From assembly GCA_938048185.1 (NCBI GenBank), contig CALIVT010000016.1:1-64000 (forward strand): a stretch of DNA of 64,000 bases, read 5' to 3'. Numbering within the stretch: the stretch's first letter is position 1; each line of letters opens with the position of its first letter. The DNA is from an uncultured Arenicella sp. (GTDB lineage Bacteria > Pseudomonadota > Gammaproteobacteria > Arenicellales > Arenicellaceae). Below are positions 1-59,263 of the stretch, piece by piece. Position numbers and translations under genes: made by a program. A model generated the notes under the pieces. It did not search any database. It worked only from the letters and a program-made list of their open reading frames with translations, and was not told the origin of the DNA.

Positions 1-3
1 AAA

Positions 4-708
4 CTAATCCAAGCCCCCTATTTCGGCAAAAGAAACCACCTCAGAGTCGCCTACAACAAAATGGTCGAGTAATTTAACGCCGACCATCTGCAAGGCTAAA
101 TAGAGCGCTTGAGTCAGACTTTTATCCGCAGCACTCGGCTCGGCCACGCCCGACGGGTGATTATGCGCAACGATCATTGCCGCCGCGTTGTGTTTTAACG
201 CTTCTTTAACAACCTCTCTGACCGGCACCGATGCGCTGTCAATGGTACCTCGAAACAACTCTTGATGATGAATAACTCGGTGTTTACTGTCTAGAAACAT
301 GGCAAAAAATGATTCGTATTGCTTATCACGCAGTTGCAACGTTAAATAGTCTCGACTGACTTGCGGGCTAGAAATCGCGTCACCTTTTTGCATTTGTTCC
401 ATCAAATAGCGCCGACCCAGCTCCAGCCCGGCTTGAAACTGCACGTACTTAGCCGTGCCAATCCCCTTTAACTTACACAAGTCATGCACCGACAAATTGA
501 GAACCGCACGCAGCCCTCCGGCTTCAAGCAAGGCATCGCGCGCTAAGTCCAGGGCGGTTTTACCCGGTAGCCCAGTACGAATAAAAATTGCCAGTAGTTC
601 GGCGTCGGCCAATGAGTCGGGGCCGTTATTAATCAGTTTTTCGCGCGGCCGCTCAGCTTGGGGCCACTCTTTAATTGGGAGCTTTTGTGTTTTGTTTTGA
701 AAAATCAT
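4..708 (-). CDS. radC: RadC family JAB-domain protein
   Basis: Complete 234-residue RadC. The N-terminal part has a helix-hairpin-helix-like segment (LCKLKGIGTAKYVQFQAG) and the C-terminal half is a JAB/MPN metalloprotease-like domain with the HNHPSG motif and a downstream Asp (EPSAADK), the usual zinc ligands. The family is named for DNA repair but its biochemical role is unsettled; JAB domains are typically isopeptidases. The start is the ATG at 708, preceded on the minus strand by a strong AAGGAAGG ribosome site. The gene is divergent from coaBC, the arrangement found in many gammaproteobacteria. Confidence 0.95.
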   Translation of the reverse strand: MIFQNKTQKLPIKEWPQAERPREKLINNGPDSLADAELLAIFIRTGLPGKTALDLARDALLEAGGLRAVLNLSVHDLCKLKGIGTAKYVQFQAGLELGRRYLMEQMQKGDAISSPQVSRDYLTLQLRDKQYESFFAMFLDSKHRVIHHQELFRGTIDSASVPVREVVKEALKHNAAAMIVAHNHPSGVAEPSAADKSLTQALYLALQMVGVKLLDHFVVGDSEVVSFAEIGGLD

Positions 709-12165: not shown

Positions 12166-12346
12166 GCATTACTAATAGTTGCTCCAACATAACCTAGATT
12201 CTAACAGACCGCGGATTTTATCTGGTTGTAGATTGAATCAGATTTAGAGCGCCAAAGATCGAACCTCGCACGCACTCCAAGTACGGATTAAAAGCGTCAA
12301 TGATTTAGTGATAAACTCAGCAACATACAGTTTAGGTAGCAATACG

Positions 12347-12832
12347 ATGAACGATGAAATACAACTGGCGGACTTTATCGAACAGCTCAGCCGTGAGCTT
12401 ATAGACAGCCGTGAGCTTATAGACAGCCCTGAGCTTATAGACAGCCCTGAGCCTATAGATAGCCGTGAGCCGAGAAACAGCAATAGTGACGCTCAGAAAC
12501 TAGTCTGTGAATCCGCTGAGGTGGATATTATGCTCAGTGTTAGTAAAGACCAACATCAAAGCCTGCGGTTTACCGTCGCGACGACTGAGCATGAGCAAGA
12601 CGCAAGCCGGTACCATAAACTAAAGTTAAAGCTCGCTCTTACCCCGCAAGCCCCTAACTCACGCACTGCAAGCCAAACACCACTTCAAAGTAAACTCGCT
12701 GGCGTCGAGCTCACACTGGCCGACGAGCATGAACCAACAGATGATTTTGATCGCTTTAAAAAGCGCTTCAAAGAGAGTGTGGAACGTAATGGCGGCGTTC
12801 CACCAAATAAAAAGAAAAATGTCTTCGATTAG
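12347..12832 (+). CDS. Small Trypco2-like protein with internal repeat
   Basis: 161 residues. The N-terminal helix IQLADFIEQLSREL, then strands around AEVDIMLSVSKD, SLRFTV and HKLKLKLALTP, resemble the trypsin-co-occurring domain 2 (Trypco2), known from bacterial conflict and signalling gene sets. That assignment comes from remembered family pattern, not a search. Between helix and strands (residues 15-44) lie five copies of a six-residue unit (S-R/P-E-L-I-D) encoded by an 18-bp tandem repeat. The C-terminal 60 residues are charged and end in a Lys cluster. The ATG at 12347 has AGG nine bases upstream; an in-frame GTG at 12308 is less likely. Confidence 0.6.
   Translation: MNDEIQLADFIEQLSRELIDSRELIDSPELIDSPEPIDSREPRNSNSDAQKLVCESAEVDIMLSVSKDQHQSLRFTVATTEHEQDASRYHKLKLKLALTPQAPNSRTASQTPLQSKLAGVELTLADEHEPTDDFDRFKKRFKESVERNGGVPPNKKKNVFD
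12389..12478 (+). repeat. 18-bp tandem repeat, about five copies, in frame
   Basis: The unit AGCCGTGAGCTTATAGAC begins at 12389, 12407, 12425, 12443 and 12461. The first two copies are identical, the next two change CGT to CCT, and the last is degraded. A multiple of three keeps the reading frame, so copy number can change without breaking the protein. Confidence 0.95.
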
Positions 12833-12895: not shown

Positions 12896-12972
12896 GCGTC
12901 CGTAGCTCAGCTGGATAGAGTAGTTGGCTTCGAACCAATTGGTCGGGGGTTCGAATCCCTCCGGGCGCGCCA
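12896..12972 (+). tRNA. tRNA-Arg (anticodon TCG)
   Basis: Complete 77-nt cloverleaf. The acceptor GCGTCCG pairs with CGGGCGC (one G-T), the D arm is GCTC/GAGT, the anticodon stem is GTTGG/CCAAT with loop CTTCGAA (anticodon TCG, reading CGA), the T arm is GGGGG/CCCTC with loop TTCGAAT, the discriminator is G, and CCA is encoded. No integrase or att duplication is visible beside it. Confidence 0.95.
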
Positions 12973-13007
12973 TCAAAATTTTATAAGCCCTTGTTTACGG
13001 ATAAGCT

Positions 13008-16000
13008 GTGGCGCCCTCTCCGACTCCGATGCCGCAAAAAAAAACAAAAAGAGAAATTAAGGCACCATGGGCTCAGCCAATAAGCTTCCCTGAAAATTTG
13101 CCGATTAGCCAGCGCCGAGAAGAAATCGCGCGAGCGATAAAACACAACCAAGTCGTTATTCTTGCGGGTGAAACGGGCTCGGGTAAAACTACACAACTAC
13201 CCAAAATATGCCTAGCCCTAGGCTATGGCCAGAAAGGCCTGATTGGCCATACACAACCTCGCAGAATAGCCGCGCGCACGGTTGCAAACCGCATAGCGTC
13301 TGAGCTGAACACGCCGCTTGGCGATGGAGTTGGTTATCAAATTCGCTTTACTGATAATTCCAGCGCCAACACTCGTATCAAACTGATGACCGACGGCGTG
13401 TTATTAGCTGAGTTTCAGAACGATCGACTGCTCAGGAAATACGACGTTATTATTATTGACGAGGCACACGAGCGCAGCTTGAATATCGATTTTTTGCTCG
13501 GCTTATTAAAACGGCTGTGCGTTAAACGCCCCGAGTTAAAAGTAATAGTAACCTCGGCCACGATAGATCTAGAAAAATTTTCGACGCACTTCGCAATAAA
13601 AGGTAACGCCGCGCCAATCATTGAAGTTTCTGGACGCACCTACCCAGTCGAAACACTTTACCAAGAGCCGAGCAGAGACGAGCCCAACCTTCCCGACGTG
13701 ATCTGCGAGACAGTAAAGCAACTTATTCGTGATGAAGCAAAAGGTCGCTTTAAAGCCAGCGGCGACATTTTAGTATTCTGCGCCGGCGAACGAGAAATTC
13801 GTGACACGGCACAAGCTCTGCGACGCGCGCAGTTGCCGATCGAGACCTTGCCGCTCTATTCTCGGCTAAGCATCAAGGAACAAAACAAGGTATTTGATAA
13901 AGCCCATCGACGTAAAGTAGTGCTTGCAACCAATGTTGCCGAAACGTCGATTACCGTACCTGGCATCGCGTACGTGATCGACCCAGGTTTAGCGCGTATA
14001 TCGCGCTATAGCTTTCGTTCAAAAGTTCAACGCCTACCAATCGAAGCCGTGTCCCAGGCTAGCGCTAATCAACGTAAAGGCCGTTGTGGGCGTGTTGCAA
14101 ACGGCGTCTGCATACGGCTTTACTCAGAGCAAGATTTCGAGCAGCGAGCGGAATTCACAGCGGCGGAAATTTTACGCAGTAATCTAGCGTCAGTCATCCT
14201 AAAGATGCTGCGTCTAGGCATTCGCGACATCAGTAAGTTTGACTTTCTAGAGCAACCGGACAAACGTCTGCTCAACGATGGCTTTAAGCTATTGCAAGAG
14301 CTCAACGCTATTGATAGCAGCCGCGCGTTAACACCGGTTGGCAGGCAAATGAGCGATCTTTCGGTTGACCCAAAATTCGCGCGCGTGCTCATCGAAGCGA
14401 ACAAACAAAACTGTTTGCGCGACGCCTTGATACTGATCAGCGTGCTTAGCATTCAAGACCCGCGTGAACGGCCAGCTGACAAGCAACAAGCAGCGGATCA
14501 AACCCATCAAGTTCTACATCACCCTCAATCGGATTTCTTTAGTTATCTAAATCTTTGGCAGGCAATCACTAATTCGCGCAGCGAGCTTAGCAACGCTAAA
14601 TTTAAACAATATTGCGTAGATCACTATTGGTCAATTTCTCGAGTCTTCGAATGGCGGGAGCTATTTCGACAGCTTGTTACTCAAACTAAATCAATGGGTT
14701 GGAAGCTCAACGACTGGCAGACTCTCACGCTACCCAAACCAGGCGACAAAAAAGCTAAGCCCGATAACCGTTTTAGCCAACGCTATGAAAATCTCCACCG
14801 AGCCTTACTAGCCGGTCTGATCGGTAATATCGCAAGCAAAGATGTTGATGGCGAATATATCGCGACTCGGTCACGACGGGTGCACTTATTTCCTGGATCA
14901 GCACAAGCCAAACGCAAACCTAAATGGCTAGTCGCAGGAGAATACCTTGAAACCTCTCGGCTATTCGCACACACCATTGGCGAAATAAAACCGCAATGGG
15001 CGATTGAAAGCGCACAACATCTTTGCCGTTATAGCTATAGCGCGCCACACTATCACGTGCGCTCTGGCGGTGTTAAAGCGTACCGCAAGACCTTATTATT
15101 TGGCTTAACGTTGCGCGACAAAGAACCCGTTAACTATGCACCAATCAACCCTCGCGAAAGCCGCGACGTTTTTATACAACAGGCGTTGGTGCAAGGCGCG
15201 TACCAACCCCGCAAAACGGTGGCCGACTTTGTAGCGCATAACCAAACATTGATCGCCGAAATAGAGAAAGTTGAAACCAAAACGCGGCGGCGCAACCTAT
15301 TGGTTAACGACCAAATCATCTTTGAATTTTACCAACAACGCATACCAAGTGAAGTCTATAACCGCCAGTCACTTGAAACGTGGTTGAGCAATGGAAATGA
15401 AGAAGCGCTTAAGCTCGATCGTAATACGCTGCAACAAAGTGAGATTGGCGCAGATCAAACGGCGCAATTCCCAGACACGATTGAAGTACATGGTAAACCG
15501 GTTCAGATCAAATACAAATTTGACCCGGGTAAGCGCAGCGATGGCGTCACTATGGTGGTGCCTATTTCAGTGCTAGCGCCGTTTCCTAACCATATTGGCG
15601 ATTGGTTAGTGCCGGGCCTATTGCACGAAAAGTGCGTGGCCTTAATCAAAACACTACCAAAGCCAATACGCCGGCACTACGCACCGGCCGTCGACGCAAT
15701 TGATCGCGTGTTCGATCAATTAAAAACACAAGATCAACCTCTACATAAAATACTGGCCGAACAGCTTTATCGCGTACGTGGGGTAAACGTCACCCTAGAC
15801 GATTTCGACCCCAGTCGCATTGATGACTTTTATCGAATGAACTATCGCGTACTAGACATCGACGGTTCGCTTATCGAAGAAGGACGCGACCTTGAGCGCT
15901 TAAAGCAAAGCTACGCAAGCTTAGTGCAAGAGAGCGTTCACTCAAACAATGCTCCGGAACGCACCAAACTCGAGAAACACAAAATTCAAGACTGGGATTT

Positions 16001-35213: not shown

Positions 35214-35277
35214 TTTATACAATCGGTCTTTATACAATCGGTCTACTGTGTCAATTGGCCTACTGTATCAACTGGCC
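35214..35277. repeat. Two adjacent tandem duplications at the 3' end of bamA
   Basis: TTTATACAATCGGTC occurs twice without gap (35214-35228, 35229-35243), immediately followed by TACTGTGTCAATTGGCC (35244-35260) and its near copy (35261-35277, 15 of 17 the same). The second pair includes the last codons and stop of bamA, so the first copy looks like a duplication of the gene end. Confidence 0.9.
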
Positions 35278-37557
35278 TACGCTAAATTGAAATTTCTCAA
35301 TTTCGTCGCCCTCTTCCTCATTAAGTGGCACTGAGTAACTGATCGACAAAGGCCCAACTGGCGATATCCAGTTGAAGCCGACACCTGCCGAGAAACGTAT
35401 CTCATCGAGTTCAATACTCTGCTCATTTGAGAACACTTGCCCGCCTTCTAAAAACAACTGCAGTCGCTTATCAAGCGCGCCGTCGCCCACCGGCAAAAGT
35501 AAGGTTGCGTTTAGGAGAACCCGTTTACTGCCGCCAAAGGGATTATCAAATTGACTGCCGTCACGTGGGCCTAAGGAACGTGCCTCAAAGCCACGCACAG
35601 AGCGCGAGCCACCAGCGAAGTAATTTTTGAAAAACGGTAAACCATCCGTGTCACCATAACCATCTCCATACCCAATATCGGCAGCAAGTTTCAATGCAGC
35701 TTTGTTGGTAAACGGATAATAGAGACTGGTATCTAAGTTTACTCGGTAGTATTCAAGGTCACTACCGGGCACGGTTGCTTCCAGTGACAAGCGCACGTTA
35801 TTCCCAGAAGTTGGGTATAACAAGCTGTCGCGCGTGTCGTGTGCAAACGCGGTGTTTACCGTAAATAAATCGTTATTCGGGTTTTCGTCAATAAAATCGA
35901 TAACCTGTTGTACCGAACGGAACGTGGATTGGAAATCGATCCTCTCAAGGCCAGCACCCAGCGAAAACGAGTTGCTCTCGTTGATCGGAAATAAGTAGCG
36001 AACGTTTAAGCCCAGTGTTTCGGTAATAAACTCTGAGGTGTTCGCGCGAGCCTGATCGATGCTTCGCCCGGTGAGTCCAATAGTACGGCTGATACCCGAT
36101 TTAGTGTAATAAGGGTTTGTATACTGCAAGGTAACCGCTTCAACAATGCTCGAGCGCTGTACGTTGAAGTTAAGTTGGTTGCCTGTTCCGAATAAGTTGG
36201 ATTGCGAGATACTGGCTTGTATCAATGCGCCATCATCACCTGAATAACCCAAGCCGAATAGGAATTGACCGGTTGAACGTTCTTTAACGACAACCTCTAA
36301 ATCTACTTGATCTTCGCGGCCAGCTACCGGCACAGTTTCAATTTCCACCTCGTCGAAAAAACTCAAACGCTGCAGGCGAATCTTAGAACGGTTTACTCGA
36401 CTCGGTGAAAAGGCACCGCCTTCAGTTTGACGTAATTCGCGACGAATTACCTCATCGTTGGTCAAGCGATTACCAACCACATCAATGCGACGAACATACA
36501 CGCGACGTCCAGGCTTAATATTGATAGAAAACGAAACGCTGTTATCGTCCTTGTTTACATTCGGTACGGGCACCACCTCTGCATAAGAGTAGCCTTCTTC
36601 AGCTAAGCGATCACCGATTACTTCTACGGTGTTATCAACATCGCGGCGTGAGTAAGTACGACCAGGCGCAATGTAGACATAAGGCAGTAGCTCTTCTTCT
36701 GGAACCACCAACTGCCCATTTAGCACGAAACTTGAGACAGTATAACGTTCGCCTTCATTCACGTTCACGGTCAAAAAGATACCGTCTTTTTCGGGCGAAA
36801 TACTGACTTGATTTGACGTGATATTGAAGTCTAAAAACCCTTGATTCTGATAAAAGCTGCGCAGCGTTTCTAAATCACCCGATACTTTCTCTTTTGAATA
36901 TTGGTCTGCGGAACCCCAGAATTTCCAGAATGGCACACTGTCAGACGATTCGAATTCGTCGAGTAGCATTTTATCGGAAAAATATTTATTGCCGATGATG
37001 TTGATCTTTTTGATTTTGGCTGTCGGCCCTTCTTTTACGTGCAATTTCACCTTTACACGATTACGCGGCAATTCAGTCACTTCGGTGCCGACCTGCGCGT
37101 TGTATTTCCCTTGATTTAGGTATTGCCGCTTAAGTTCTTGTTTAACTTGCTCAAGTACGTTTGGCTGAAAGACTCGCCCTTCAATAAAGTCATTGCCAGA
37201 TAGCGCGTCGCGCAATGACTCTTCTTTAATCAACTTATTACCAGCAAATTCGATTTGCGCAATAGACGGATACTCGACCACGCTAATAACAATCGCGGTA
37301 CCCTCTGTTGAGAGTTCAATATCCTTAAAAAAGCCAGTTTTATATAACTCTCGAATTAATTCCGACGATTCAGTCGGATCAAACTTATCGCCCACTTTTA
37401 CTGGCAAATAATTAAAGATCGACCCCGCCGAAATCCTCTGCAAGCCTTTTACACGAACATCAGAAACAAGAAATGACTCTTGAGCGAGTGCCAACGGCGC
37501 ACCCGTCCCTACAAGCAATGCGGTAAACAGTAATGTAATGCTGAGTTTTCTAATCAT
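35260..37557 (-). CDS. bamA: Outer membrane protein assembly factor BamA
   Basis: Central outer-membrane insertase for beta-barrel proteins; 765 residues. Signal peptide at 1-25 (ITLLFTALLVGTGAPLALAQ), then five POTRA domains (about 26-425; the first reads LVSDVRVKGLQRISAGSIFNYLPVKVGDKF) and a 16-strand barrel. VRGFEARSLGPRDG is the conserved L6-loop VRGF motif. The C-terminus FSVGQLIQ ends unusually, not in a typical aromatic residue, and coincides with a tandem repeat in the DNA. rseP is upstream and skp downstream. Confidence 0.97.
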   Translation of the reverse strand: MIRKLSITLLFTALLVGTGAPLALAQESFLVSDVRVKGLQRISAGSIFNYLPVKVGDKFDPTESSELIRELYKTGFFKDIELSTEGTAIVISVVEYPSIAQIEFAGNKLIKEESLRDALSGNDFIEGRVFQPNVLEQVKQELKRQYLNQGKYNAQVGTEVTELPRNRVKVKLHVKEGPTAKIKKINIIGNKYFSDKMLLDEFESSDSVPFWKFWGSADQYSKEKVSGDLETLRSFYQNQGFLDFNITSNQVSISPEKDGIFLTVNVNEGERYTVSSFVLNGQLVVPEEELLPYVYIAPGRTYSRRDVDNTVEVIGDRLAEEGYSYAEVVPVPNVNKDDNSVSFSINIKPGRRVYVRRIDVVGNRLTNDEVIRRELRQTEGGAFSPSRVNRSKIRLQRLSFFDEVEIETVPVAGREDQVDLEVVVKERSTGQFLFGLGYSGDDGALIQASISQSNLFGTGNQLNFNVQRSSIVEAVTLQYTNPYYTKSGISRTIGLTGRSIDQARANTSEFITETLGLNVRYLFPINESNSFSLGAGLERIDFQSTFRSVQQVIDFIDENPNNDLFTVNTAFAHDTRDSLLYPTSGNNVRLSLEATVPGSDLEYYRVNLDTSLYYPFTNKAALKLAADIGYGDGYGDTDGLPFFKNYFAGGSRSVRGFEARSLGPRDGSQFDNPFGGSKRVLLNATLLLPVGDGALDKRLQLFLEGGQVFSNEQSIELDEIRFSAGVGFNWISPVGPLSISYSVPLNEEEGDEIEKFQFSVGQLIQ

Positions 37558-37593
37558 AGAGTCCTCGATGAACCATGGGTATTCTTTAAATTA

Positions 37594-37644
37594 TTCATTT
37601 GGCTAACCTATTCATCTGGCCAACCTATTCGTTCGGCTAATTTA
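37594..37644. repeat. 17-bp tandem repeat, three diverged copies, upstream of bamA
   Basis: TTCATTTGGCTAACCTA (37594-37610), TTCATCTGGCCAACCTA (37611-37627) and TTCGTTCGGCTAATTTA (37628-37644) follow directly. They lie in the bamA leader, 37-87 bp from the start codon on the transcribed strand. Confidence 0.85.
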
Positions 37645-40463: not shown

Positions 40464-40550
40464 GGTGATTTTTGCATGAGTAATTCTGGCCCTAGAGCCT
40501 CGAAAGTGAACGCAGCAAGCGATTAAAAAGTGCCCAAGCTAGTAACGTTC

Positions 40551-40592
40551 TAAGCTAAAAAGTACTAAGCTAAAAAGTACTAAGCTAAATAG
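40551..40592. repeat. 15-bp tandem repeat at the cdsA 3' end
   Basis: TAAGCTAAAAAGTAC occupies 40551-40565 and 40566-40580 exactly, with a third partial copy TAAGCTAAATAG from 40581. The third copy is the end of cdsA including its stop, so the repeats look like expansions of the gene end into the spacer before dxr. Confidence 0.9.
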
Positions 40593-44850: not shown

Positions 44851-45912
44851 CTAAGCTAATTTGGCTTTGGCTTGTGAGATCCACTCTTCGCGTTCGATAC
44901 GGCCTTTGAAGTTTAATTCACCATCGATACGCTCTACCTCTTCAGGTGTGAAATCAGCGATTTGTTGAAAAGTGCTAACACCAAGTGCGTGCAGCTTACC
45001 CTCGATCACCGGGCCAATGCCGTTGATCTCAGTAAGCTTGTCCGCTTCACCGGAAGTCGCCGCTTTTTCAACGACGGGTGCTGCAACTTCTTCAACAACC
45101 GGAGCCGCCGCTTCTTCCGCAGCTGGCACTTCGGCAGCAGGCGCTGCGACCGGAGCAGCCGCTTCAGCCGCTTCGACCACTTCGATGTAATCATTTGCAT
45201 CGCCGCTAGCAACCGCTGGCTTTATCTGGGCAGCAGAACGGGCATTAATCATCGTGTCAGCAACGGCTTCTACGTACAGACGAATCGCGCGAATCGCGTC
45301 GTCGTTACCTGGAATAACATAATCAATACCGTCTGGTACGCAGTTTGTGTCAACCACCGCAATAACCGGGATGCCTAGTTTATTGGCTTCCGAAACCGCA
45401 ATGTACTCAGACTTAACGTCAATAACAAACAACGCATCAGGCACGCCTTGCATGTTTTTAATGCCACCAAGACTGCGCTCAAGCTTAATGCGCTCACGAT
45501 CCAGCGTTAATGATTCTTTCTTGCTCAAACGGGCGTGAGTACCTTCAACCAACGCGGTATCGAGCTCTTTCAAACGTTTGATTCTGTTTTTAACGGTTTT
45601 GTAGTTAGTCAACATGCCGCCTAACCAGCGGTGATTGACGTATGGGGCGCCCGCACGTTCTGCGGCGTCTTTAACAAGCGTGCTTGCTGAACGCTTAGTA
45701 CCAACCATCATGACTTGACCGCCGTTGCCAACAATTTGACCGATGTAGTTCATCGCATCGTTGAACATCGGCAGCGTTTGCTCAAGGTTGATAATATGAA
45801 TTTTGTTGCGCTCACCGAAGATAAACGGGCGCATTTTTGGTGACCAATAGCGAGTTTGGTGACCGAAGTGTACGCCTGCTTCAAGCATCTGGCGCATAGT
45901 AACGTCTGACAT
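44851..45912 (-). CDS. rpsB: Ribosomal protein S2 with C-terminal helix-hairpin-helix extension
   Basis: 353 residues, about 110 more than usual. Residues 1 to about 228 are a complete S2 ([66 protein letters not shown]). Residues about 229-290 form an Ala/Glu/Val/Pro-rich linker. Residues 291-353 are a helix-hairpin-helix domain ([20 protein letters not shown], then [16 protein letters not shown]). Similar HHH tails occur on a few ribosomal and respiratory proteins; their role is unknown. There is one continuous frame, no frameshift. The start ATG is at 45912. Confidence 0.97.
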
Positions 45913-46311: not shown

Positions 46312-47892
46312 GTGCAACAACTTAGTGGACTAGACGCTTCATTTTTATATTTAGAGACGACCAATTGCCCTATGCACATTGGGTCGCTCATGATTTACGA
46401 TCCGTCGACAGCGCCAGGTGGGGCCGTTGGTTTCAAACAAATAATGGCCAACGTACTCGAACGCGCCCATCGTGTGCCGTCAATGAACAACCTATTGGTC
46501 GAGGTTCCACTGCGGCTAGACCACCCCTACTGGAAGTCTAACGGCGCATTTGACCCAGAGTTTCACATCCGACACATTGCGCTGCCCAAACCGGGCGACT
46601 GGCGCCAGCTTTGCATTCAAGCATCGCGTCTGCACGCCCGCCCACTGGATCGCGCACGACCACTTTGGGAGTTTTATGTTATCGAGGGCTTAGACAATGT
46701 TGAAGGCTTTCCCCCAGGATGCTTTGCTCTGCTCACGAAAATGCATCACGCTGCGATCGACGGCGCATCGGGCGTGGAAATCGCGGCTGCCATTCACGAT
46801 CTGAGTGCACATTATGCGATCGATGACACCGACAAAACCATCAAGAAGGAGCGAACGCCCACCAACACGGAGCTTATTTGGCGCTCTCAAGTCAACAATA
46901 TAAAGACCCCATTGCGCGTATTTGAAGTGGCCAAGAATACGATTCCCGGAGTGGCTAAGCTCGTGGCTGGTTTAGCGCGAGGCAAACTCTCGCGCGTTAC
47001 CGACATTCCGCGCACGCGTTTTAACACAAACGTCTCACCGCACCGCGTGTTCGATGCAGTAGAGTTTGATTTTGCTGATATCAAACATATTAAAAACGCG
47101 GTGCCTGGCGTTACCGTCAACGACGTCGCCTTAGCGATTTGCGGAGGCGGTTTACGAAAGTATTTGCAGAGCAAAAATGAACTGCCAGAGCGCTCGCTTG
47201 CGGCAATGGCCCCGGTTAACATTCGCACCCAAGATCAACACGGCAAAGCCGGCAATCAGGTTTCACAGCTAACGGTGCGAGTTCGCAGCGATATTGACGA
47301 CCCACTGGAACGGCTACAGGCAGTGAGCGAAGGCACTTCGCAAGCGAAAGAGCTTAATAACGCCATTGGTGCCAAAACCATGACCGACTATACGCAATTC
47401 GTGCCGTCGACCTTGACCGCCGCCGCCGCTCGACTTTCCAGCCGCTTAGCACTAGTAAACCGTGTTAAGCCATCGTACAACTGTGTCATCACTAATGTTC
47501 CCGGCCCCCAAGTTCCCTTGTATTTTACCGGCGCTAAGATGTTAAGTAATTTCGGTCTTGGCCCGGCGATTGATGGCATGGGGTTATTTCATGCATTGTT
47601 GAGCTACTGCGGAAAATTTAATATAAGCATTAACGCCTGTCGTGAGATGATGCCTGACCCAGCATTCTATGCGGAATGTTTGCGAGAGTCATTTACCGAA
47701 TTGCTGGCTGCAAGCGTACCCGACGAGAGCCCGTCCAAACGCAAGAAAGTAGCAAAAAAAACAAGTCGTAAGACAAGCCAAAAGACAGCCAAGAAAGTGA
47801 CTAAAAAAGTGACTAAAAAAGTGACTAAGAAAACGGCTAAGAAAACGGCCAGAAAAATGACTAAAAAGACCGAGGGGAAGACTCCTCGGTAG
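46312..47892 (+). CDS. Wax ester synthase/diacylglycerol acyltransferase with Lys-rich tail
   Basis: 526 residues. The WS/DGAT fold: N-terminal LSGLDASFLYLETTNCPMHIGS, catalytic HHAAIDG at 145-151, and the C-terminal NVPGPQVPLYFTGAKM with GLFHALLSYCGKFNIS. It would esterify fatty alcohol or diacylglycerol with acyl-CoA to make wax esters or triacylglycerol, stored at the inner membrane. Residues about 472-526 are a Lys/Thr/Ala tail (KKVTKKVTKKVTKKTAKK), like H1-type bacterial histones. The start is GTG at 46312 with AGGA eight bases upstream. An alpha/beta hydrolase follows 38 bp later. Confidence 0.9.
   Translation: MQQLSGLDASFLYLETTNCPMHIGSLMIYDPSTAPGGAVGFKQIMANVLERAHRVPSMNNLLVEVPLRLDHPYWKSNGAFDPEFHIRHIALPKPGDWRQLCIQASRLHARPLDRARPLWEFYVIEGLDNVEGFPPGCFALLTKMHHAAIDGASGVEIAAAIHDLSAHYAIDDTDKTIKKERTPTNTELIWRSQVNNIKTPLRVFEVAKNTIPGVAKLVAGLARGKLSRVTDIPRTRFNTNVSPHRVFDAVEFDFADIKHIKNAVPGVTVNDVALAICGGGLRKYLQSKNELPERSLAAMAPVNIRTQDQHGKAGNQVSQLTVRVRSDIDDPLERLQAVSEGTSQAKELNNAIGAKTMTDYTQFVPSTLTAAAARLSSRLALVNRVKPSYNCVITNVPGPQVPLYFTGAKMLSNFGLGPAIDGMGLFHALLSYCGKFNISINACREMMPDPAFYAECLRESFTELLAASVPDESPSKRKKVAKKTSRKTSQKTAKKVTKKVTKKVTKKTAKKTARKMTKKTEGKTPR
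47793..47828 (+). repeat. 12-bp tandem repeat coding for a Lys-rich tail
   Basis: A GTGACTAA core recurs at 47797, 47809 and 47821 with A-rich flanks, exactly 12 bp apart, coding repeated KKVT. The repeat region is in frame and continues as diverged copies (KKTA) to about 47860. Confidence 0.85.
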
Positions 47893-59065: not shown

Positions 59066-59235
59066 CAATAGATTAATACAGTTCCCACATAAAAACTTAT
59101 TAAACGTTCATCGTTTTTTTATAACGTCAGCCGCCAGTTACTCATGAAAGGCTTGCGGTCTGAAGCAAATAAATCATTAAACAGAAACCTTAGCCATCCA
59201 ACAGAAACAGTCGACGATAATTTCTGACGATGGCT
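59066..59235. other. Kinase upstream spacer, no gene
   Basis: No plausible ORF or RNA. AT-rich with a seven-T run near 59114-59120. It may hold the promoter of the kinase-phosphatase pair; no clear hexamer pair was seen. Confidence 0.4.
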
Positions 59236-59263
59236 GTCCGTACTATTTTGTCCGTACTATTTT
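59236..59263. repeat. 14-bp tandem duplication
   Basis: GTCCGTACTATTTT at 59236-59249 is repeated exactly at 59250-59263. It directly abuts the broken end of the IS110 fragment. Confidence 0.85.

Follow-up and report, generated by a model that had tools for sequence, protein, structure and literature searches.

The 64,000-nucleotide stretch of Arenicella DNA analysed here (the window), which is ordinary chromosomal DNA, holds a small gene with a tandem array of 18-bp units, and this array probably belongs to a dispersed minisatellite family whose members have the core (A)ACAGCCYTGAGC in common, carry spacers of their own and were amplified locally. Tandem repeats and dispersed repeats are both known; we know of no earlier case in which arrays with spacers of their own share one core across many genera, and a title-level literature search of incomplete coverage found no published description of a core-sharing array family. 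As far as we are aware, the tandem repeats of a bacterium are normally unrelated from one locus to the next.

The array in the window gene

The features of the locus, in positions of the window, are as follows.

12347..12832, forward strand: gene for a Trypco2-like small protein of 161 aa, in which the array is read as N/D-S-(P/R)-E-x-x (from the ORF list and profile)
12359..12646, forward strand: stretch aligned to the Trypco2 profile, the array being an insert between the helix and the first strand
12387..12470, forward strand: tandem array of five cores, (T/A)(C/T)AGCC[G/C]TGAGC, period 18 bp, spacers ttatag (three times) and ctatag
12477..12481, forward strand: incomplete sixth core (ACAGC) on the array's right-hand border
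12896..12972, forward strand: tRNA-Arg(TCG), bordering a locus that has different contents in the six relatives compared

The ORF begins with ATG, and an in-frame GTG at 12308 would give a protein of 174 aa. The original prediction of five near-exact in-frame units is borne out by TRF, which reported 12388-12470 in the window with a period of 18, 4.6 copies, 93% match and a score of 138; among 100 first-order Markov simulations of the window, no score exceeded 66. The first letters of the cores are at 12387, 12405, 12423, 12441 and 12459, and the array encodes residues 15-44 as five six-residue units (SRELID, SRELID, SPELID, SPEPID and SREPRN). It had also been proposed that these units lengthen a helix, but three of the five contain proline, making a clean helix extension unlikely.

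The identification of the protein with Trypco2 (PF19631) stood in part. The profile is covered end to end (78 of 78 positions, residues 5-100), while the score of 18.5 bits (E 0.0024) lies below the gathering cut-off of 24.2 bits, as do the scores without the repeats (18.6) and with the tail trimmed (20.2). An AlphaFold2 model, too poor for a judgement (pLDDT 41.6), has an order of elements that fits Trypco2 (H7-26, E52-66, E69-84, E87-99). The protein had no NCBIfam match and no convincing PDB match, PADLOC gave no match for it or for one neighbour, and 60 related genomes held no convincing relative outside the repeat (best E about 0.005). Among 41 genomes searched, Trypco2 matches above the cut-off occurred in one, G005, of the same genus; there a 216-aa ORF (L231:1330-1980) has two tandem matches (41 and 26 bits) after an apparent signal peptide. 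The window segment is 23% identical to the first of these over a short alignment. A clear Trypco2 protein in the same genus makes the resemblance plausible, if unproven, and we describe the window protein as Trypco2-like and do not assign it as a member.

Trypco1/2 are described as adjoining trypsin-like peptidases in VMAP systems (PMC7159879) and Trypco2 as an adapter domain (PMC10907252). By eye, the ORFs of at least 150 aa in the window included no conflict-system peptidase or NTPase, no trypsin-like peptidase or VMAP system was seen near the gene, and its neighbours, three of which were also compared with Pfam together with the helicase named below, are ordinary chromosomal ones; the position beside a tRNA, with no peptidase or NTPase alongside, was confirmed. 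It is very unlikely that the protein is a Trypco2 adaptor in which slippage of a coding repeat sets the length of the helix. Such a reading would agree with the full-length profile match and with whole-unit changes of copy number in the repeat family (Salinivibrio kushneri, below), and it is opposed by the sub-threshold score, the prolines, the lack of conflict genes nearby and the occurrence of related arrays between genes and in other proteins. Because arrays are also intergenic and lie in several frames of unrelated proteins, the repeat belongs to the DNA as such, not to Trypco2, and a change of helix length is not supported as its purpose.

On the 3' side of the tRNA lies an HrpA-type helicase with DEAD, HA2 and DUF3418 domains (Pfam). 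A gene like that of the window is absent at the junction of tRNA-Arg(TCG) and hrpA in all six relatives compared; at this junction (window 12896-13008; L285-L290) neighbours differ among the six and the tRNA is on the opposite strand in five, indicating that the window gene occupies a changing spot. Within the Trypco2-like domain, the array would have arisen in the loop that follows the first helix, a place where a linker of variable length may be tolerated.

A common core in tandem arrays of one genome

A protein search with the window ORF mainly matched the repeat elsewhere in the window's own genome (G000) and in other species. The 12-letter core ACAGCCYTGAGC is common to tandem arrays in this 3.1-Mb Arenicella-group genome, the window array included. 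It occurs 99 times exactly, compared with 0.67 expected from base composition and none for the reversed control, and 98 of these copies lie inside tandem arrays at 16 places, the sole lone copy being on contig C27. An R-core array on C13 brings the arrays to 17. Exact copies per site are as follows, by contig.

C1, 8 and 6; C7, 8 and 3; C10, 3; C12, 4
C16 (the window), 2; C17, 9; C18, 5; C19, 4, 12 and 6
C22, 17; C27, 1; C30, 3 and 2; C37, 6

The arrays at the end of C19 and the start of C22 may be a single array split by a contig break; arrays at contig ends suggest that the family may disrupt short-read assemblies. Periods are 16, 17, 18, 19, 20, 21, 22 and 23 bp, with one array of 37/42, and both the sequence and the length of the spacer are particular to each array. 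Where arrays abut, the period shifts while the core continues, from 16 to 21 on C1 and from 18 to 17 on C22. A DNA uptake sequence, which would have many single dispersed copies, was rejected on the count of 98 of 99 exact cores in arrays. A CRISPR array (21-48 bp repeats with unique spacers of similar size) was likewise set aside, the spacers here being for the most part 4-11 bp, with longer ones in the 37-44 bp class, and often identical within an array. We also noted arrays of a sister core, AGCCCTCAGC / ATAGCCATCAGC, which differs by G to C at one site, in G000 (L250:3006-3086) and in Alteromonas G454 (L335).

Constancy of the core

When neighbouring units were compared, 16 of 990 positions in the core had changed and 48 of 474 in the spacer (Fisher p 1e-12; core position 7 excluded), so that the core changes about six times less than the spacer, a constancy partly enforced because array detection admitted only units with at most three core mismatches. 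All 20 length changes between adjacent units fell in spacers. Some two-unit arrays have spacers that differ from each other (L137, L154), and spacers of the 18-bp class are not free, showing the preference (G/C)(A/G)(A/G)(T/A)AAA. The core varies most often at position 7, and this variation alters the residue (P, L, H or R) that is read in frame NSPE. On the left, database arrays have a sharp border at the AA preceding the first core; on the right, the partial core CAGCC is over-represented.

Recurrence and constancy of a core among unlike spacers call for a binding protein or for an amplifying activity that reads the core: the core would be either a protein's binding site under selection or the target on which the amplification works. 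The analysis turned up no enzyme or factor that acts on it. We think it doubtful that the core is the site of a DNA-binding protein and the arrays clusters of sites kept by selection, like iterons or centromere sites. A core far more constant than the spacer, even where spacer length varies, is what such a protein would produce, and the arrays beside 6S RNA, which lie just downstream of it in one orientation in four species with units of 22, 41, 41 and 44 bp, point the same way. Against selection for binding, the arrays are patchy (8 of the 18 genomes of the genus are without an 18-bp core pair, two of the eight carrying 41-44-bp arrays), sister species lack them at the sites that were compared, and many lie within unrelated ORFs.

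At the zapA-6S-ygfA site, arrays are present in G000 (22-23 bp), G007 (41), G003 (44) and G010 (41) and there is none in G015; their occurrence beside 6S RNA in four species indicates that the site is common though the units differ. The core arrays here (L238, L265, L266, L268), found in four of the five species compared, are antisense and follow 6S RNA directly on its downstream side, and the longer units (37-44 bp class) have a hairpin after the core.

Distribution

The arrays are patchily spread across the Gammaproteobacteria. Within the genus, 18-bp core pairs (at most two mismatches) were found in 10 of 18 genomes, G000 included; G003 and G010 are without such pairs, yet carry 44- and 41-bp arrays, respectively. 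In a sample of the class, exact core pairs 2-22 bp apart occurred in 7 of 369 genomes, three of the seven from the window's genus, and controls gave none. A scan of genome contigs returned at least 114 stretches, 114 of which were parsed, with Y-core 18-bp pairs in at least 86, of which at least 79 are gammaproteobacterial; the other seven Y-core loci among the matches listed are all MAG records by title, two of them given only as Pseudomonadota. Twelve genomes behind Y-core loci all contained core pairs, from 1 to 126 (reversed control 0), and two of the twelve had many arrays with a longer common core that includes GGCTCTT. His-rich coding repeats (SHEHGH, by eye, in L131, L136, L142, L168 and L201) fit the N-core pattern and are not members; they dropped out of later counts because those counts required Y in the core.

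Queried with the C17 array, 5,426 E. coli genomes and the phage records gave no match, and two plasmid records, both from Salinivibrio, did; a scan of viral contigs for arrays returned three stretches. A phage or plasmid origin was rejected on these results.

Presence, absence and change in unit number

For empty sites we used 40 stretches, of which 11 were aligned, 6 were read for ORFs and 4, from the zapA site, were read for arrays. The array of G000 between tpiA and secG is absent in all five relatives, and the array between a tRNA and secE in all six. The other 19 stretches (recX-alaS, nirB-nirD, rpsF, deaD and C18) held no two nearby cores and may not span the array site.

The region between moaB and moaC was matched in 56 of 59 Alteromonas genomes. 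Three have an array there (seven units in G426, four in G491 and two recognisable cores in G469), and the 18 others that could be aligned have none. In these 18, moaC starts with ATGAGT in ten, ATGAGC in four and otherwise in four, so that at most a half-core, ATGAGY, is found in 14, and none has ACAGCC; a full seed core was therefore not present beforehand, and pure local duplication is insufficient to explain the array. Neither a TIR nor a target-site duplication is apparent at this site, which is too diverged to fix the borders. Away from moaC, a hand count gave array-like matches in 23 of the 59 genomes, and 20 such stretches from 19 genomes all proved to hold arrays, one with the variant core TCAGC. 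They lie mostly in differing places with differing spacers, and species pairs have some sites in common (L328/L329, L332/L341 and L333/L337).

Presence and absence between species, and empty moaB-moaC sites without ACAGCC, from which that part would have come from elsewhere, could also suggest that ready-made arrays or units are copied to new sites by a transposase or other system, in the manner of MITE or REP elements, and the hairpin in some units (37-44 bp class) could fit this as well. We regard such insertion as unlikely. At most loci of one genome the spacers and periods are unlike, which is not expected from copying, and only a single lone core occurs in G000. The array-rich genomes G000, G434, G435, G436 and G199 each have two to five Y1 transposase matches (two in G000), but no Y1 match (PF01797, E 1e-5) was obtained in the array-bearing G003, G004, G009, G014, G359, G426, G431 and G433, some of whose assemblies are incomplete. 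A Y1 transposase thus does not seem to be needed for the arrays, judging from these gene contents, and RAYT/REP was rejected since Y1_Tnp does not track the arrays in eight genomes, though it is found in the array-richest ones.

Arrays gain and lose whole units, and inside genes the steps keep the frame. In Salinivibrio kushneri, the photolyase genes of strains TGB11 and TGB4 differ in having four units against three, a difference of one in-frame 18-bp unit that is the sole indel in an alignment of 3,066 bp (96.7% identity). One Arenicella MAG has the same array on two contigs with six and five units (L134, L147). In G000, the four arrays wholly inside plausible genes (C16, C10, C13, C7b) have steps of 18 only, and 10 of the 11 intergenic sites show steps not divisible by three, the exception being C17 (the C19 end and C22 counted as one site, C30b excluded). 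Under the preferred reading of a core-sharing minisatellite family, units would be gained and lost locally through slippage or unequal recombination between cores. Several observations given in this account count against that reading: the lack of a factor acting on the core, the empty moaB-moaC sites, the two-unit arrays with differing spacers, the spacer preference of the 18-bp class, the longer core of two genomes, the array sites that species have in common, and the low number of genomes with exact core pairs in the class sample.

Arrays within genes

An ORF of at least 120 aa covers the array in 57 of the 91 database arrays listed and does not in the remaining 34, an ORF of this kind being no proof of a gene. 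Two forward and three reverse frames are in use (NSPE in 32 ORFs, TALS in 14, reverse frames in 11). It is extremely improbable that selection on a peptide, with the arrays as protein repeats of the form SPExIN and intergenic arrays as decayed genes, could explain these numbers. NSPE is indeed the commonest frame, but several other frames are used as well, periods of 16, 17, 19, 20, 22 and 23 are common outside genes, and the commonest variation in the core, at position 7, changes the NSPE residue.

Ten of the 57 ORFs were scanned with Pfam for the positions of their domains. In seven of the ten (L116, L125, L144, L158, L175, L202, L161) no matched stretch contains the array; in the other three it forms an insert within a domain match (L140, a methyltransferase; L141, ParA-like; L213, SbcD_C); the match in L175 is half of the profile, and the array may sit inside that fold too. 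Within genes, then, arrays appear to be placed mostly in linkers or tails. In G000, arrays lengthen the N-termini of RsmI and NirD, and one lies within a 276-aa ORF without a Pfam match. The arrays thus provide ready-made linkers of variable length to RsmI, NirD, photolyase, DnaX, a multi-ACP synthase and an ABC transporter, all housekeeping proteins, and they extend gene starts. Core arrays were also seen in giant ORFs of 2,037-2,114 aa in Shewanella (L161, L183, L221), and the first array of L161 immediately precedes a PP-binding domain in a multi-ACP ketosynthase.

Comparison with known repeat systems

With head-to-tail units within 10-60 bp and a unit number that differs between S. kushneri strains, the arrays are of the minisatellite or VNTR kind. 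Like bacterial VNTRs, they consist of tandem units, here of 16-44 bp, whose copy number differs between strains; we know of no bacterial VNTR loci that have anything in common with each other, whereas here one core recurs at many loci and across genera. Human minisatellites, reportedly described by Jeffreys as having a common core, are alike in their many loci, short common core, differing unit lengths and spacers, and changes in unit number. They differ in that the present arrays are bacterial, have an unrelated core and lie in and between compact genes, and have no known role in recombination.

Cyanobacterial STRRs are short tandem repeats with seven-bp units at many intergenic sites. Arrays of the present family resemble them in being short tandem repeats at many intergenic sites, and differ in having a 12-bp core plus spacer and in belonging to another phylum. 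Rickettsia palindromic elements are repeats that end up in frame within unrelated genes. PARCELs (PMC2996958) are also in frame within unrelated genes. In comparison with both, the present arrays are shorter and non-palindromic, use several frames and also occur between genes. REP/BIME elements with a RAYT Y1 transposase (PMC3733652) are short repeats dispersed in Gammaproteobacteria. The arrays share with them dispersal as short gammaproteobacterial repeats and, in the 37-44 bp units, a hairpin; they differ in that the bare 16-23 bp units have no palindrome on inspection and stand in tandem with spacers of their own, and in that Y1 is not found in every array-bearing genome (absent in eight).

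Possible mechanism

We propose, more weakly, that the core is what the process acts on, so that amplification would be limited to DNA that holds or acquires a core, and that the core would stay constant while the spacers drift. It is tentatively conceivable that the Gammaproteobacteria have a trans-acting activity that recognises the 12-13 bp AACAGCCYTGAGC and amplifies the DNA around it. If so, any site that acquires AACAGCCYTGAGC, coding or not, would grow a minisatellite with a spacer of its own, and the family would be the bacterial parallel to minisatellites driven by a core and would supply proteins with new in-frame linkers.

Other repeats and genes in the window

TRF returned 13 rows for the window compared with a mean of 1.2 in simulated windows, some of the 13 being coding repeats. 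Coreless short tandem repeats of 15-17 and 14 bp lie at 35214-35280, 37592-37640, 40550-40589 and 59235-59263; two of them flank either end of bamA (named by eye), and two 17-bp ones are similar (TGGCYWAC) and are perhaps a second family. By eye, ribosomal protein S2 (44851-45912, 353 aa) has an Ala/Glu/Pro-rich repeat-bearing linker and a C-terminal tail resembling a helix-hairpin-helix, and an acyltransferase-like ORF (46312-47892) has a Lys/Thr-rich tail, KKVTKKVTKK, encoded by 12-bp repeats.
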